From contig JAUUXB010000002.1 in NCBI GenBank assembly GCA_030588745.1, forward strand, positions 22,157 to 86,156: DNA of 64,000 nucleotides, written 5' to 3'. Below, piece after piece: positions 31,555 to 37,852 of this stretch. The stretch is from a bacterium. Lineage in GTDB: Bacteria > Patescibacteriota > Minisyncoccia > Minisyncoccales > JANBVM01. The position numbers and the translations under genes were made by a program. Under the pieces are notes generated by a model that saw only the letters and a list, made by a program, of their open reading frames with translations, was not told the DNA's origin and did no database searches. Each line of letters opens with the position of its first letter. The stretch's first letter is position 1.

Positions 31555-31606
31555 AGTTAATATTTATATTTTAGCAAAAAACCGCTCGATTGGCGATTTT
31601 TTACTA

Positions 31607-31626
31607 GCTCCAGTGACAGAACTCTT
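31607..31626 (-). other. tRNA-3'-end-like patch A (weak)
   Basis: Minus strand GAGTTCTGTCACTGGAGC followed by a hairpin and T6. Confidence 0.25.
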
Positions 31627-31691
31627 CATTTGTTAAAACTATGAATGGGCACAATAAATAGGTGATTGCCACACCATCAAAGCAATCAAAA

Positions 31692-31722
31692 AGAAAAACA
31701 CCCATTCTGGGTGATTTCTTTT
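31692..31722 (-). terminator. Terminator of the cold-shock gene
   Basis: Minus strand CACCCagaatGGGTGTTTTTCTTT. Confidence 0.75.
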
Positions 31723-31744
31723 ATTTGATTTACTGAATTAATTC

Positions 31745-31942
31745 TTAAAGGCGGGTTACGTTTGTTGCGTTAGGACCCTTTGGAGAATCAACTTTTTCGA
31801 AAGATACTCTATCACCTACTTTTAACTCTTCGTAGGTTACGCCCTTAAGTTCGTTGCTATGAAAGAATAAATCTTTCTCTTCACCATCAACGGTAATAAA
31901 TCCAAATCCTTTATCTGTAAGATTTTTAATTGTTCCTTCCAT
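31745..31942 (-). CDS. Cold shock protein (CSD)
   Basis: GTIKNLTDKGFGFITVDGEEKDLFFHSNEL. Confidence 0.95.
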   Translation of the reverse strand: MEGTIKNLTDKGFGFITVDGEEKDLFFHSNELKGVTYEELKVGDRVSFEKVDSPKGPNATNVTRL

Positions 31943-32110
31943 GATTGTGATATAAATTAATTAATGTTTTAAGATTTTATCTCAAAGCTTAGTTCCTTGA
32001 ATAAGTTCGACTAAATTTTTATCAGGCAACTATCTTATATGAACAATATTAACATCTAAAAAATAATTGGTCAACCAAAAAACCGCCCAAGAGGCGATTC
32101 TTTGAATTTG

Positions 32111-32140
32111 GCTCCGGGGATGGTACAATATTAGAACTTG
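32111..32140 (-). other. tRNA-3'-end-like patch B
   Basis: Minus strand CAAGTTCTAATATTGTACCATCCCCGGAGC then hairpin AATCGCCtcttGGGCGGTTTTTT. Confidence 0.35.
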
Positions 32141-32204
32141 GTTTATGGAAGGATTTTCTACAGTCAAATCAATTCAATTATCATTTTAAAGTCTAAAAGA
32201 ATAA

Positions 32205-32238
32205 AAAAGAGAGAGTTTCCTAAAAGGTACTCTCTTTT
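32205..32238 (-). terminator. Terminator of the 204-aa ORF
   Basis: GAGAGT...ACTCTC inverted repeat, T-run on the minus strand. Confidence 0.6.
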
Positions 32239-32851
32239 ATCGGATTTCAGAAAATTCAACTCGTTCGATAGAACTCTCCAGGAAAATAACGCAGGAGATA
32301 TAATCACTGAGGGCTAAAATAGCTCCGAAGTTATTTTCTTCAAAAAACCTCTTATGTGATGGAAATCCAAAGTGTTTCATTTTTTCCTCTAGAAACTCTC
32401 CTCTACTATTTTTCAACTCTCGCCATGTATTTTCTTTGCCTCTTTCATTCCACGAGTTCAATATATCTCTGTGGAATGGATTGTTTGGATCAAAAAGGAA
32501 ATATCCTCTTCGGAAGTAAAATCGTACAATGAAAATCGGCAAATGAGCAAAACTAAAAGTGTTACAGGGGGCAAATAATGCCGTCCAAATACCTGGGTAA
32601 TTTCCCTTAGTAATCCATTCTTGAGGAACTCTTCCAAATTGTTTCCACTCTTCTTGCATTTTTTCAAAATGTTCTCGTTCATGAACTCTATGAAAATAAC
32701 CAACTTGGTTATATTGAGATAACTCAATTCTATTTGAAGTGGTTAATAGTTTATAAGTTTCCTTCCACAGCTTACTTCTCCATCTTGTATAATCTTGCTT
32801 TAAACCCAACCAATCAATAACCTTTGATTCCATGAGTGATAACCTCCTCAT
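32237..32851 (-). CDS. Hypothetical protein (204 aa)
   Basis: Long ORF, SD GGAGG upstream, own terminator. Confidence 0.7.
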   Translation of the reverse strand: MRRLSLMESKVIDWLGLKQDYTRWRSKLWKETYKLLTTSNRIELSQYNQVGYFHRVHEREHFEKMQEEWKQFGRVPQEWITKGNYPGIWTALFAPCNTFSFAHLPIFIVRFYFRRGYFLFDPNNPFHRDILNSWNERGKENTWRELKNSRGEFLEEKMKHFGFPSHKRFFEENNFGAILALSDYISCVIFLESSIERVEFSEIR

Positions 32852-33024
32852 CTAATATAAAGTTGTTAATTTTCTACCCGTTTATCTTACAAGAATTTAA
32901 CAAAAAATCAACCCCAAACAAAAAAAATTGCTAATTTAGCGAAAAGTTCTAGTCCTACTCTGGGTTAAGGAAAAAACCTGCCAAAATAGCAGATTTTTAA
33001 ATTCAAGTTCTAGCAAAAAGTGGG

Positions 33025-33055
33025 GCTCCCCTTATTGGACGCGTTCAGAACCATT
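33025..33055 (-). other. tRNA-3'-end-like patch C
   Basis: Minus strand AATGGTTCTGAACGCGTCCAATAAGGGGAGC. Confidence 0.35.
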
Positions 33056-33154
33056 GATTGGAGAGAAATTCGGGAAAATCTTAGAGAAATAGAATCTTTA
33101 TTAGTAAGGAATTAAAATAAAAAATGGTGCTTTTTTGCACCAATTGACTTTAAT

Positions 33155-33475
33155 TTAATCATACATTTTTTCTAACTCCTTCATATCTTTTTCTGCATAG
33201 TCCTTGCCAAGCAGTGTTAGTTTATAACCTCTTCCTGTTTCTTCCACTAAACAGTGTCGTATCATATCCACGATCACTTCTTGAACTTCGTCACTGTAAT
33301 CAGACTGGTATCCAAAATCAATTAACTCAAATCTCTCTTTATCTTCCTTTTTCATTTTCTTAACCTCTCTGTGAATATAAAGGGAGTCAAGTTCTCTATT
33401 TCTTTCTATAAGTTTCAAAATTATACCAGTGAGGAGATTTCTAATTTCCTTAAAAACTGGGGTATAAATTGTCAT
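33155..33475 (-). CDS. Hypothetical protein (106 aa)
   Basis: ORF with SD GGAGG upstream; downstream terminator GGTGC/GCACC at about 33124-33141. Confidence 0.65.
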   Translation of the reverse strand: MTIYTPVFKEIRNLLTGIILKLIERNRELDSLYIHREVKKMKKEDKERFELIDFGYQSDYSDEVQEVIVDMIRHCLVEETGRGYKLTLLGKDYAEKDMKELEKMYD

Positions 33476-33554
33476 TTCTATCCCTCCGATTGATATTATT
33501 TTTAAATTTAATTTTCTACCTTGCTTCTACTCAATCTTTTGAGTTTTGTCAAAC

Positions 33555-33584
33555 TAAAAACCCGAGAAACAATCTCGGGCTGAA
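33555..33584 (-). terminator. Second terminator-like hairpin after the 92-aa ORF
   Basis: CCCGAGAaacaaTCTCGGG, T-run on the minus strand. Confidence 0.75.
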
Positions 33585-33588
33585 CAGA

Positions 33589-33618
33589 GCTCCGGGTCTT
33601 GGACGATGTTAGAACCTG
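33589..33618 (-). other. tRNA-3'-end-like patch D
   Basis: Minus strand CAGGTTCTAACATCGTCCAAGACCCGGAGC then a terminator. Confidence 0.4.
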
Positions 33619-33662
33619 TTTTGAAATAAAAAAAATGGCCGATAGATAAATCATACGGCTTT

Positions 33663-33941
33663 TTAACTTATTATTTTTCCTTCGTTAAGAGCTTTTATCT
33701 TCTCGTCCATCTCTTTATTTTGTATTGCTGTTTGAAATGGAAACAAAGCTTTTTCCATAAACTTCTTTGCTACCATTGCGGTAAGATAGTCGGTTTCTTC
33801 TTTGCTGCCGTCAGAACTATCCAAAATAATGCTATCTGCAGCACTAACTGCACCTTCAACTATTTTATTTCGTCTATATTCTATTTCTTGCCATTTTTCC
33901 ATTTTAAGGTTCAACCTCCTTTTATTTAGTAACCTTAGCAT
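33663..33941 (-). CDS. Hypothetical protein (92 aa)
   Basis: ORF, downstream terminator GCCG/CGGC; the true start is probably the internal MEKWQEIEYRRNK (after AGGAGGTTGAACCTTAAA). Confidence 0.6.
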   Translation of the reverse strand: MLRLLNKRRLNLKMEKWQEIEYRRNKIVEGAVSAADSIILDSSDGSKEETDYLTAMVAKKFMEKALFPFQTAIQNKEMDEKIKALNEGKIIS

Positions 33942-33962
33942 GCCAAATTAAATCAAAAAAGT

Positions 33963-33989
33963 CAAAACCCGAGAACCAATCTCGGGCTG
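33963..33989 (-). terminator. Terminator-like hairpin, near-copy of the one at 33555
   Basis: CCCGAGAaccaaTCTCGGG with minus-strand T-run. Confidence 0.75.
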
Positions 33990-33993
33990 AATT

Positions 33994-34020
33994 TGCTCCC
34001 CTAGTCGGTCTCGAACCTGT
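33994..34020 (-). other. tRNA-3'-end-like patch E
   Basis: Minus strand ACAGGTTCGAGACCGACTAGGGGAGCA then a terminator; GGTTCGA T-loop core intact. Confidence 0.45.
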
Positions 34021-34136
34021 GGTTTAAAGGAAAATTAAGGGGTTTTCCAGGGTATCCCGCAATGCCTCTCGGTCGGGGCTCTTTTAAGCTAAAATGAGAC
34101 AAATGAGACAGTGCTAAGGGGTATGGAAATTGTGTC

Positions 34137-34673
34137 TTATTTCTCAATTTCCTTAGCTAACTTTTCAAGCCCGAATCCATTTATTAATTCTATCTCTATG
34201 AGACTATCTTTAGCAAAAACTTTTCCATCTTCTGTAAATTCACCAGTGGTGACAAAAAATCCTTTTTCGCCTTTTTCTTTGTTAAGATCTTGAATGGAAC
34301 CAGCAAACTCTCTTACCTCTTTTGGTAGAACTTGATTTTTTCTTTTGCATTGAATAAAAAATCTTTTTCCATCCTTAAAGGCAATAACATCGATACCCTT
34401 ATCTCCTGACCCACCAACCACTTTTGTTTTATATCCTAAACCCTCAAAGATAATGGCGACAATTCTCTCAAATTTTTTATGATTCATTGTTTTCCATTCA
34501 ATCAATCTTTTGTGTTTCTTAAGCCATTTTTCATCAAGCCATTTACTAATATATGACTTGGCTATGGAAATGACTACGGGGGTACTAAGTGCGATAACCC
34601 AAAACCACCAAAATGGTTTTATGAAAGTTATCCAAGGTGTTCTTATTGGTTCCGTATAATCAATGTGGATCAT
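34137..34673 (-). CDS. Mrr-like restriction endonuclease domain, membrane-anchored
   Basis: FERIVAIIFEGLGYKTKVVGGSGDKGIDVIAFKDGKRFFIQCKRKNQ (PD-(D/E)xK, QCK) plus N-terminal TM. Confidence 0.88.
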   Translation of the reverse strand: MIHIDYTEPIRTPWITFIKPFWWFWVIALSTPVVISIAKSYISKWLDEKWLKKHKRLIEWKTMNHKKFERIVAIIFEGLGYKTKVVGGSGDKGIDVIAFKDGKRFFIQCKRKNQVLPKEVREFAGSIQDLNKEKGEKGFFVTTGEFTEDGKVFAKDSLIEIELINGFGLEKLAKEIEK

Positions 34674-34701
34674 TTTTTATTTTCTTAATTTTTTCTTTCA
34701 T
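34660..34701 (-). other. Short leader ORF MKEKIKKIKNDPH overlapping the Mrr-like gene start
   Basis: ATGAAAGAAAAAATTAAG identical to starts of neighbouring genes but out of frame with the downstream ORF. Confidence 0.4.
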
Positions 34702-34708
34702 GGATTTT

Positions 34709-35611
34709 TCATTTTCCTATTTCAATTTGAGAAGGGTTTTTTAGAATGATTTCCGGCCTGTCTTCATATTCCTTAATTTCACCCTTAATTCTAACTGTTT
34801 TTTGAGAATAATAGTCCTCTGGACTCTGAACAAACTTATATTGGTCTGAACTAAAAATTACACTAACAAAACATTGGTTAGGATATGATTTTTCGAAATT
34901 TAAAAAGACTGTATTAGTTTTTGATCTATAAGTATCAACAATCTTCCCCTCAATAATTATTTCTTTTCCTAAATAATTTCCTGCCTGACAAGCGCCAACA
35001 ATTTTTAATCCTGTTAATTCAGAAGTTAATTTTTCCCATCGAAACCCAATCTTTTCATCTTCTTCTATTATTCTCTCGCCCCATTTACAGCCAACTTTAT
35101 TTTCTATGGCTTCTCTTTCTGCTTGAGCGATTTCTTCTTTATACTTCACATCTTCTGGAGAGAAACGAGCCACCGCTAATCCTTCTTTAACCAATTCCAG
35201 ACTAATATTCTGATCGCTAAGAAAAACATATCTCAAATATCGACACCATTGATCTTGATCTTCTTTTCCTTTTTCTAATTTTACCTCTTTGTTTAAAATC
35301 AACTCTTCTAACGCCTGTTTGGCTTCTTCATAACAAGGATGTCCTCTTTCATCGGCATCAATTCCTAAAATTCTAACTGAATAACCCCCTTCTATCATAA
35401 AAGTATCGCCATCAATAACCTTAGTTGTTAATTTTAAGGCCATATCGGAAAGCTCAGGAATACTTACACAATTCCCATCTTCACCATTATGGTTTTTCTC
35501 TCGATTAGAAATTATTATCGCTCCTCCAATAATTAAGGCTCCGACAATAATTGCCAAGAATATTCTGTTTTGTTTAAAAAATTCTTTCATTTTTAACCTT
35601 ATTGATCCCAA
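34709..35611 (-). CDS. Thermonuclease (SNase)-like, membrane-anchored; start may be ATG at 35590
   Basis: KVIDGDTFMIEGGYSVRILGIDADERGHPCYEEAKQAL; N-terminal TM; C-terminal OB-like extension. Confidence 0.9.
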   Translation of the reverse strand: MGSIRLKMKEFFKQNRIFLAIIVGALIIGGAIIISNREKNHNGEDGNCVSIPELSDMALKLTTKVIDGDTFMIEGGYSVRILGIDADERGHPCYEEAKQALEELILNKEVKLEKGKEDQDQWCRYLRYVFLSDQNISLELVKEGLAVARFSPEDVKYKEEIAQAEREAIENKVGCKWGERIIEEDEKIGFRWEKLTSELTGLKIVGACQAGNYLGKEIIIEGKIVDTYRSKTNTVFLNFEKSYPNQCFVSVIFSSDQYKFVQSPEDYYSQKTVRIKGEIKEYEDRPEIILKNPSQIEIGK

Positions 35612-36387
35612 ATATCTTCTGTGAAATTTAAAACTTTTACAATGGGCTTAATCCCTGCTTCCCTTATTATTTCTTTCAATATGGGTTGTTTAGAGATAAA
35701 GTTAGCCACTGGAGGACTACTTTTATAATAAAATTTCACAAATTTCTTTCCTAAATTAGTTTTTAAAAGAAACGCATCTCTAAAATCTCTTAAAATATCA
35801 ATTTCTGGAGCTAGCGGAGTTCCATATGCGGCAGTGGCAATAAAACAACCTTCTTCGTCTCTGGATTCTGTTTTATATCGAGTATTAGCTTCCGAAGTAG
35901 ATTCTCTCCAAAAACCCATTCCGAAGATTTTTCCAGTATCTGTATCTTTCATAACCAAGAAATAAATTCTATTCCCGTCCTTCATTTTATAATACATAAG
36001 TATAGTTCCTAACCTTTCTTCAAGATAAGGAGTTCTGCCCTCCACCCCTTCTTTTAATACATTCAACCCCCATATTTCATCTATTAAACTCAATGCAAAT
36101 TGTGTCGTATTTTGTTCTGTCGGCTCCAAAAGAGGTTCAAAAGTTGCGCCATATTGACCTGTTTCCTCATTTTTACCTAGATACACATCAGCTAAACCAT
36201 ACCATTTTCCAAGGAATTGAATTTCTTCACTAACAGAAGAAGCGAAAACAGTCTCTTGTGACTTTATAGTGAATCCAGTTTGAGTTTTCAATCTGAAATC
36301 ATTTAAGATGAGAATTATTAACAAAACTAGCACAAAAATAATGCTTCCAAAAATTATTTTCCTATTTTTCTTAATTTTCTCTTTCAT
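35599..36387 (-). CDS. CFI-box-CTERM domain protein, N-terminal TM
   Basis: GCFIATAAYGTPLAPEIDILRDFRDAFLL motif; MKEKIKK start. Confidence 0.85.
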   Translation of the reverse strand: MKEKIKKNRKIIFGSIIFVLVLLIILILNDFRLKTQTGFTIKSQETVFASSVSEEIQFLGKWYGLADVYLGKNEETGQYGATFEPLLEPTEQNTTQFALSLIDEIWGLNVLKEGVEGRTPYLEERLGTILMYYKMKDGNRIYFLVMKDTDTGKIFGMGFWRESTSEANTRYKTESRDEEGCFIATAAYGTPLAPEIDILRDFRDAFLLKTNLGKKFVKFYYKSSPPVANFISKQPILKEIIREAGIKPIVKVLNFTEDIWDQ

Positions 36388-36391
36388 AGAT

Positions 36392-37264
36392 TTATCCCGC
36401 TTTCTCTCTTAGCCCCTCGATCATATACTTTAAGATAAGACCAGAAAACGGCTCTTCATATTTTCTATCATCTATAGTAACAGTTAACTTTGCTAATTTT
36501 TCAGACCATATAAAATATTGCGTCTTTTGTTTTCTTTCTCTTCTTAACGCTATCCCATCACTGTATGAGTCTATAGAAATAATCTTGTCCAAATTCACGC
36601 TTAATGTCCTTTTTTGCCCAGTAAAAACAATTCTTTTGTTCGTAAGGGTAAACATACCTTTGTCTATAACTCTTATTTCTTCGCGGGATTCACTTTTTGA
36701 ACCAAAAGCCCCAACTCTAAAATAGACTCCTTTTGCCACCCTAAAACTTGGACCACCATAACCACCACTACTTACTCTTACCGAACGTGGTTCTTTTAAT
36801 GAAATATTTGGAAGTACACATCTAAGTTCTTCGTCCTTTTTTAAAAGGATAGGTGATGGTATCCCTATAAACTTTATAGGCGCTTTTCCTTCTCTTATTG
36901 CATTCATCCATTCTTCCATATCTGCTTCCTTTTGTTTAACATCTGACATTCCGCCATTGGCTATATTTTTCCATTCTCTCGCGGTTAAAGTCTGGTTTCT
37001 GTATTCCTGCCAAATTAGACTAGATGCGTCTTGAACTTTAGAAAGCTTATGCTTTTCTCCACGTCTAGCAAAGATTGCATCACATTTATTACACTCAAAA
37101 CTCTTAATGGTTAGTAAGCCAAATATCTTCTTCCTGATGGTTTCTATTAGTTGTCCAGACTTGCATACGGGGCACTTTGTAAGCCAAGAGGTTCCAATAG
37201 GATTACCATGGTCATTTAATGTTTTCTTAATTTTTTCTTCCATAGATTTATTCATTAACACCAT
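36392..37264 (-). CDS. Zinc-ribbon plus PH-like domain protein; start more likely ATG at 37243
   Basis: CPVCKSGQL...CNKC zinc ribbon; GMFTLTNKRIVFTGQKRTLSVNLDKI. Confidence 0.75.
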   Translation of the reverse strand: MVLMNKSMEEKIKKTLNDHGNPIGTSWLTKCPVCKSGQLIETIRKKIFGLLTIKSFECNKCDAIFARRGEKHKLSKVQDASSLIWQEYRNQTLTAREWKNIANGGMSDVKQKEADMEEWMNAIREGKAPIKFIGIPSPILLKKDEELRCVLPNISLKEPRSVRVSSGGYGGPSFRVAKGVYFRVGAFGSKSESREEIRVIDKGMFTLTNKRIVFTGQKRTLSVNLDKIISIDSYSDGIALRRERKQKTQYFIWSEKLAKLTVTIDDRKYEEPFSGLILKYMIEGLREKAG

Positions 37265-37478
37265 TTTTTCTTAGACACATTTTATAATAAACCTCGTAAT
37301 CATCGAGCTTAAATTTACCTTCGGCACAAGTAGTACATTTTTCAATAGCTTTTTCTACTGCTATATTATGACAATTAGAATAAATTTGTGATGGTCTTAT
37401 CTAACACCAATAAAAAGCACCACCAACGATTAAGATAATAATTGCTATCCACCAATATTCCTTAATTTTTTCTTTCAT
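37248..37478 (-). pseudogene. Small membrane/cysteine-motif protein interrupted by in-frame TAG (37401-37403)
   Basis: MKEKIKEYWWIAIIILIVGGAFYWC[TAG]IRPSQIYSNCHNIAVEKAIEKCTTCAEGKFKLDDYEVYYKMCLRKNGVNE stop; frame open on both sides of the TAG. Confidence 0.55.
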
Positions 37479-37498
37479 AGAGCTTTATGAAGTGCTTC

Positions 37499-37714
37499 TC
37501 AGTCAGAAGCCCCCTCTCTTATTTGTATGACACAGGTTTGAATACAAGCACTTTTGTCGCTACTGCAATACTCATCACAACCGCACCTTCTTTTACATCT
37601 TTCGATAGGATCACCTGTGTATTTATACCAAATCAAATAACCAACAGTGATTGTTAGTGATAATAAAGATAAGGTAATAAGAATAAGGCAAATTATTTTG
37701 ATTTTTTCTTTCAT
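37499..37714 (-). CDS. Small membrane-anchored cysteine-rich protein (71 aa)
   Basis: MKEKIK start, TM helix, RCKRRCGCDEYCSSDKSACIQTC. Confidence 0.65.
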   Translation of the reverse strand: MKEKIKIICLILITLSLLSLTITVGYLIWYKYTGDPIERCKRRCGCDEYCSSDKSACIQTCVIQIREGASD

Positions 37715-37770
37715 AGTGTTTCTTTATCTTCAAAATAACCTTATTTAAAACAAAATTCAAGCCAAAATTA

Positions 37771-37792
37771 AAAACCCGATAAAGTCGGGTTG
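37771..37792 (-). terminator. Terminator downstream of glyS and the tRNA-like patches
   Basis: CCCGAtaaagTCGGG with minus-strand T-run. Confidence 0.75.
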
Positions 37793-37797
37793 ATAAT

Positions 37798-37851
37798 GCT
37801 TCTCGGTCGCTCGAACCGAGCACTAGCCTGCTCCGGCGATAGGACTCGAAC
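37798..37851 (-). other. Two stacked tRNA-3'-end-like patches (F1, F2) abutting the glyS stop
   Basis: Minus strand AGTTCGAGTCCTATCGCCGGAGCA and GTGCTCGGTTCGAGCGACCGAGAAGCA then a terminator. Confidence 0.45.
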
Positions 37852-37852
37852 T

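Follow-up and report, generated by a model that had tools for sequence, protein, structure and literature searches.

Recurrence of a 30-nt stop/start module where unrelated accessory genes meet, within a single order of Patescibacteria

In the analyzed DNA (hereafter, the window: 64,000 nt, G000:C2:22157-86156, from a draft genome of 625,872 bp), unrelated genes of the minus-strand array at positions 34660-37714 open with nearly the same nucleotides. The question raised by this locus is whether such starts reflect the A-rich gene starts usual in these genomes, the N-terminus of one protein or protein family, or a nucleotide repeat that can pass between genes.

Module copies and genes of the window array

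The first-pass annotation had described six consecutive genes as sharing, or nearly sharing, this leader. The 18-mer ATGAAAGAAAAAATTAAG was found on the minus strand at five of these starts with no more than two mismatches, whereas the SNase start at 35590 (ATGAAAGAATTTTTTAAA) differed from the leader at 5 of 18 positions and is not a module copy. The features of the array, all on the minus strand, are as follows:

37694-37723, minus: module copy 1, ATG at 37714, 18-nt core with two mismatches
37499-37714, minus: 71-aa membrane peptide rich in Cys, read in frame from the module, without a Pfam match
37458-37487, minus: module copy 2, ATG at 37478, core exact
37249-37478, minus: small FYW..RP..I..C-family membrane protein, interrupted by a TAG at 37403-37401
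37223-37252, minus: module copy 3, ATG at 37243, one mismatch, upstream TAA stop inside the copy
36392-37243, minus: 283-aa protein with Cys pairs (zinc-ribbon-like), read in frame from the module, without a Pfam match
36367-36396, minus: module copy 4, ATG at 36387, one mismatch, stop of the preceding gene inside the copy
35599-36387, minus: 262-aa protein with a membrane anchor and the motif CFIATAAYG, read in frame from the module, without a Pfam match
34709-35590, minus: SNase-family nuclease (Pfam PF00565, 5.3e-15), start not a module copy
34681-34710, minus: module copy 5, ATG at 34701, core exact, opening a mini-ORF
34660-34701, minus: 13-codon mini-ORF (MKEKIKKIKNDPH followed by a stop), started by the module, in overlap with the start of Mrr and out of frame with it
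34137-34673, minus: Mrr-like restriction endonuclease (Pfam PF04471, Mrr_cat, 5e-27), own ATG

The copies at 37243 and 36387 were identical at 28 of 30 positions, the upstream TAA included, in agreement with the direct repeats annotated on both sides of the zinc-ribbon gene; the in-frame TAG likewise agrees with the reported amber-split ORF. The claim that all of these proteins begin with MKEKIKK has to be narrowed, since the Mrr-like nuclease starts from its own ATG in another frame and 35590 lies outside the copies.

The four core matches with at most one mismatch in the window compare with none in 60 order-4 Markov sequences of equal length, the annotation having proposed a shuffle-type check, and matches with three mismatches were near chance level. 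A search of the whole genome, also proposed there, returned few further matches with at most one mismatch, namely, three clustered matches on contig C23 and one at a single gene, C2:8309. In the C23 array, an HNH gene was supported by Pfam, and the GIY-YIG match at C23:7886 was weak and below the curated cut-off; the remaining scanned genes of the window array had no Pfam match. Module genes of other genomes include those for a trypsin-like peptidase, SNase, an NYN domain and a DnaA-like ATPase, and no ribosomal or tRNA-synthetase gene was present among the 20 proteins covered by this partial scan. The L044 protein appears ComF-like by eye, and its start has no upstream AATCT.

Conservation and distribution of the module

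The unit is a nucleotide module of about 30 nt with the consensus AATAAATCT-ATGAAAGAAAAAATTAAG-AAA. In an alignment of 59 copies, positions -9 to +20, counted relative to the A of the ATG, had high information content, with a drop to background beyond them, and positions -9 to -6 and +18 to +20 had played no part in the selection of copies. The conserved unit is a nucleotide sequence and not an N-terminal peptide. Protein-level convergence on MKEKIKK was rejected as a full account because the spelling and the upstream AATCT are common to the copies, and because mini-ORFs, too, carry the module.

Within the order to which the genome belongs, the 23-mer AATCTATGAAAGAAAAAATTAAG (two mismatches allowed) was present in 33 of 247 genomes, with 58 matches against 2 for the reversed control; in the rest of the phylum, 372 sampled genomes gave 4 matches against 3 for the control, which is chance level. 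In a species-level genome collection, most of the exact 21-mer matches came from records bearing the label Nealsonbacteria, Parcubacteria or Patescibacteria. A search for exact 21-mers in IMG/VR returned none, and viral carriage was set aside.

The module is also clustered. Among the 119 ATG-AAR-GAR-AAR-ATH-AAR sites of the order, 65 had the module spelling, and these formed 19 pairs closer than 4 kb against 0.47 expected, whereas the 54 sites with other MKEKIK spellings formed one such pair against 0.14 expected; the module-spelled starts are therefore a distinct and clustered population. Some of these 65 starts have no AATCT upstream and may be ordinary starts. The variant at +17 was common to both copies in 11 of 19 array pairs (hand count), no more than expected; thus, recent conversion within arrays is not evident, and concerted evolution within arrays at this position was not seen.

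Chance or an A-rich start bias, which the annotation had named as what would refute its reading, might be suspected, given that A and K are very common at gene starts in these genomes and that three-mismatch matches approach chance. This explanation is nevertheless extremely improbable because of the contrast between order and phylum with their controls, and it is contradicted as well by the clustering, by the Markov sequences and by start frequencies: about 15 exact 23-mers were seen at gene starts of the order, against some 0.006 expected with independent sites (our own arithmetic, as the product of the position frequencies of ordinary starts).

Flanking genes and junctions

The flanks of 61 non-redundant copies were analyzed. 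With TAA or TGA in AATAAATCTATGA, or a TAA further on in AAAAATTAA, the module provides stops for two of the three frames in which an upstream gene can enter it, and upstream genes do end inside it in two frames. The TAA of TAAATCT ends the upstream gene, for example, at 36387, L154:7707, L059, L075 and L087, and in seven copies (L071, L096, L153, L154, L155, L156 and L157) the upstream gene runs through the module in the other frame and ends in YERKN or HERKN. At L161, the module is followed by ILDKALKGELLIN and a stop, which we tentatively read as the C-terminal end of a type I specificity subunit.

Both sides of the module are joined to a variety of genes: downstream, it either reads in frame into accessory proteins unrelated to one another or gives rise to a mini-ORF ahead of a further gene. 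In 36 of the 61 copies it was in frame with at least 40 aa; the other 25 open mini-ORFs of 7-32 codons, and in 18 of these the next ORF starts 28-86 nt downstream (the window Mrr gene at 34673, the C23 HNH gene at C23:8498, L160 and others). Mini-ORF copies had on average 0.64 mismatches in 21 nt versus 1.25 in in-frame copies; being no more diverged, they are not decayed starts. The mini-ORF may be coupled to the following gene. In this respect the copies resemble bicistronic or reinitiation leaders, with the difference that one sequence here precedes many unrelated genes and that coupling is putative. Known leaders of this kind, in which a short leader ORF overlaps the main start, are gene-specific or engineered.

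The ATG of the module sits in an A-rich context, and ordinary starts in these genomes are likewise A-rich, with SD-like sites at 6%. Island-start modules come after a terminator U-run and a TATAAT or TAGAAT box, which lies 6 nt before the ATG at L055, L161, L110 and C23:7684; such a -10-like box is found in four or five promoter-proximal copies and is absent from most gene-internal ones. Its placement would put the ATG at or near the transcript 5' end, which suggests leaderless transcripts at island starts. The scarcity of SD sites and, in some copies, a -10-like box whose last base lies 6 nt upstream of the ATG are points of likeness to leaderless bacterial genes (for example, PMC3160421); the difference is that many module copies come after a preceding stop with no visible promoter, and therefore those copies would not be leaderless.

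Comparison of homologous genes revealed that they gain, lose or swap the module and that homology breaks at its edges. G085 and G088 have the upstream gene and the module in common and diverge right after the module, and a gene homologous between G170 and G178 is followed by the module in G170 only. A gene of G170 and G088 has the module at its start and reads its last residues through a second copy, with different neighbours in each genome; a gene bounded by modules on both sides was found in two families. The N-terminus of the window Mrr protein had 74% amino acid identity to that of G005, whose locus is without the module, with DNA homology resuming just 3' of the module position; the module was absent from all other Mrr loci examined in the order. 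For a large protein of G005, G178 and G076, it was joined to different N-terminal lengths in two genomes and absent in the third. In the few pairs whose homology ends at module edges, the A-rich edges preclude base-exact junctions.

Two alternative explanations were weighed. In the first, the leader would be the 5' end of the FYW..RP..I..C membrane-peptide family, spread by tandem duplication, with deletions joining it to neighbouring genes. The module does occur in four members (two in G000, one each in G072 and G076), but most relatives start otherwise, so the leader is not a fixed N-terminus of the family; deletion endpoints would, moreover, scatter along the gene, yet conservation ends at about +20, and further conserved family bases are largely absent downstream of mini-ORF modules. 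We consider this origin quite improbable. In the second, the module would be the best translation or leaderless-promoter start of the lineage, kept or re-evolved by selection at highly expressed accessory genes without special recombination. The prevalence of A-rich, SD-poor starts, the boxes 6 nt before the ATG and the good conservation of mini-ORF copies would fit such selection. The excess of exact 23-mers over start frequencies, the similar genomes elsewhere in the phylum that have no module, the clustering of copies and the existence of homologous genes with and without the module speak against it, and selection alone appears unlikely.

The idea of a mobile or shared initiation module at unrelated accessory gene boundaries, as put forward in the annotation, is supported by an order-restricted nucleotide repeat that is clustered and has gene-block boundaries at its edges in several genome pairs. 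Cassette-wise accretion at the leader, also proposed there, is putative: neither an excision product nor a strain series nor a dedicated recombinase was seen.

Island edges, proposed recombination and comparison with known systems

The array is part of an island between glyS and an M16 peptidase gene. In G002, G003 and G005, which represent three other genera of the same family, 35-60 bp separate glyS from the peptidase gene, and in the congener G001 there are 1.7 kb of unrelated DNA between them. The island and its edges are as follows:

31555-37852, strand not assigned: island between glyS and the M16 peptidase gene, 6.3 kb in G000
37798-37851, minus: left edge, 3'-end fragment of tRNA-Asn and a hairpin element, with near-identity to the C23 locus at which an intact tRNA-Asn lies upstream of the array
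33992-34110, minus: right array edge, repeat ending in GGTTCGAGACCGACTAGGGGAGC, also at the C23 array end, in G001 and in G088
33589-33615, minus: tRNA-3'-end-like element GTTCTAACATCGTCCAAGACCCGGAGC
33025-33051, minus: tRNA-3'-end-like element GTTCTGAACGCGTCCAATAAGGGGAGC
32111-32137, minus: tRNA-3'-end-like element GTTCTAATATTGTACCATCCCCGGAGC

The near-identity to the tRNA-Asn end extends over 54 nt at 37851, the tRNA-Asn before the C23 array being intact. Both arrays end with a repeat of about 90 nt ending in AGGTTCGAGACCGACTAGGGGAGC, which also occurs in G001 and in G088, a member of another family, and the serial GTTCTRA..GGAGC elements lie beyond this right-edge repeat. Apart from tRNA-Asn, no known RNA family exceeded the gathering score near the arrays.

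Conserved flanks with different content were found at the glyS/peptidase and rpoD/tRNA-Asn sites. The comparison of G000 with G001 therefore shows whole-island replacement at tRNA-like edges. The annotation had proposed to compare sister strains for genes gained or lost exactly between leaders; the nearest relative differs by the whole island, bounded by tRNA-like elements, and not by single leaders, and one-gene junctions, with homology breaking at module edges, were found in a few distant pairs. Leader-level exchange is thus seen only between more distant genomes, and no two strains were seen to differ, at the same locus, by one gene whose gain or loss falls exactly between a pair of modules. 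The islands are like replacement flexible genomic islands exchanged via homologous recombination in having differing gene content at the same site and homologous ends (PMC4033161); the difference is that a 30-nt start module repeats inside the island, beside tRNA-like edges. They are also like islands integrated at tRNA 3' ends, in that the edges resemble the T-arm and acceptor end of tRNA-Asn (GTTCGAGTCCTAYCGCCGGAGC), and differ from them in that no island integrase was seen and several diverged edge families lie in series.

A dedicated site-specific cassette system, with the module as an integrase attachment site like integron attC, might also be expected to show sharp edges, arrays in which each gene has its own module and, as in two families, a gene enclosed by modules. 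Against this, no integrase was found in the mapped arrays, and the PF00589 search revealed no dedicated recombinase there: the domain had no match in the window or on C23, and its only match in G000, a tyrosine recombinase, was on C26, which is not one of the array contigs (C2 and C23). Such a recombinase, Xer-like by size, had a single match in four of six family genomes, two matches in G003 and none in G002. The module is without inverted arms by inspection, no reported inverted repeat pairs two arms of one copy, and junction positions vary by a few bases. We hold such a system to be very doubtful. The arrays share with integron arrays (attI/attC/IntI) the unrelated small accessory genes, the short shared boundary sequence and the differences between relatives; unlike integrons, they have no IntI that was found and no palindromic attC, and the repeat holds the start codon and stands at each gene's 5' end. 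No description of such a repeat in CPR was found in the open PMC articles searched.

The explanation that we prefer, and to which we give an even chance, is that the module is a portable stop/start joint and that recombination over its own sequence copies it from locus to locus and from genome to genome inside one order. It reaches from the last bases of a gene into the first bases of the gene that follows; since it has stops for two frames and an ATG amid A-rich sequence, as would suit a lineage mostly without Shine-Dalgarno sites, DNA joined to it from either side would still be terminated and re-initiated. A length of 30 nt is about the minimal homology for RecA exchange. This length and the A-richness, which fits microhomology joining, favour recombination over the module, so that copies might spread by RecA-type exchange or by joining in A-runs. 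This spread would build arrays of unrelated small accessory genes and swap genes, and translation initiation would be the reason the module is kept.

We also put forward, as a distinctly less probable and tentative extension, that Patescibacteria have a cassette-capture system in which the recombination site itself is the stop/start signal and the array holds no dedicated integrase gene. If this is true, any captured DNA would at once be terminated upstream and expressed downstream.

In annotation, MKEKIKK N-termini and ...ERKN C-termini shared by proteins of these genomes can be joint sequence instead of a sign of homology, and a large number of leaders form out-of-frame mini-ORFs. The module also offers a tag by which accessory islands can be searched for in uncultured genomes. 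The genomes of Patescibacteria are very small, and little is known of how they acquire accessory genes, those for nucleases among them; a 30-nt joint doubling as a translation start would allow new genes to be plugged in and expressed in a simple way.

Interrupted and truncated genes

The small membrane-protein ORF of the window was interrupted by an in-frame TAG (37401-37403, minus strand); its relatives in genomes G072 and G076 and on contig C23, which carries the second module array of the window's genome, had no such interruption. The Mrr-like gene of genome G005 (locus L111, 383-703, minus strand) was truncated after 45 codons and then fused to GGGGAGCTAAGCTGTGAGACTTTCGAGAGACCGAG, a sequence similar to the tRNA-like edge element over that element's right half. 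At locus L161 (7432, reverse complement), a short tail lay directly 3' of the module. This tail looked like the terminal part of a type I restriction specificity subunit, the arrangement that deletion of a gene up to the module would leave.

Second boundary repeat

A second boundary repeat, TGTCTCATTTGTCTCATTTT, was located at gene edges in several genera.

Occurrences of TGTCTCATTTGTCTCATTTT
Window 34110-34060, minus strand
Locus L170, upstream of the Mrr-like gene
Locus L138, 11106

tRNA-3'-end-like elements

In the window island and in loci L031 and L138, accessory genes were set apart by serial tRNA-3'-end-like elements (GTTCTRA...GGAGC) of at least four diverged types, often with a terminator and a -10-like box on their 3' side. 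A small cold-shock-like gene occurred repeatedly within islands, at different sites adjoining tRNA-like elements.

Element series and cold-shock-like genes
Window 31555-37852, minus strand, element series
L031 7541-9470, element series
L138 9150-13600, element series
Window 31745-31942, minus strand, cold-shock-like gene
L138 13693-13941, cold-shock-like gene
L160 8153, reverse complement, cold-shock-like gene

The tRNA-3'-end-like elements resemble sites at which small islands attach, and they may represent a bigger finding than the leader.
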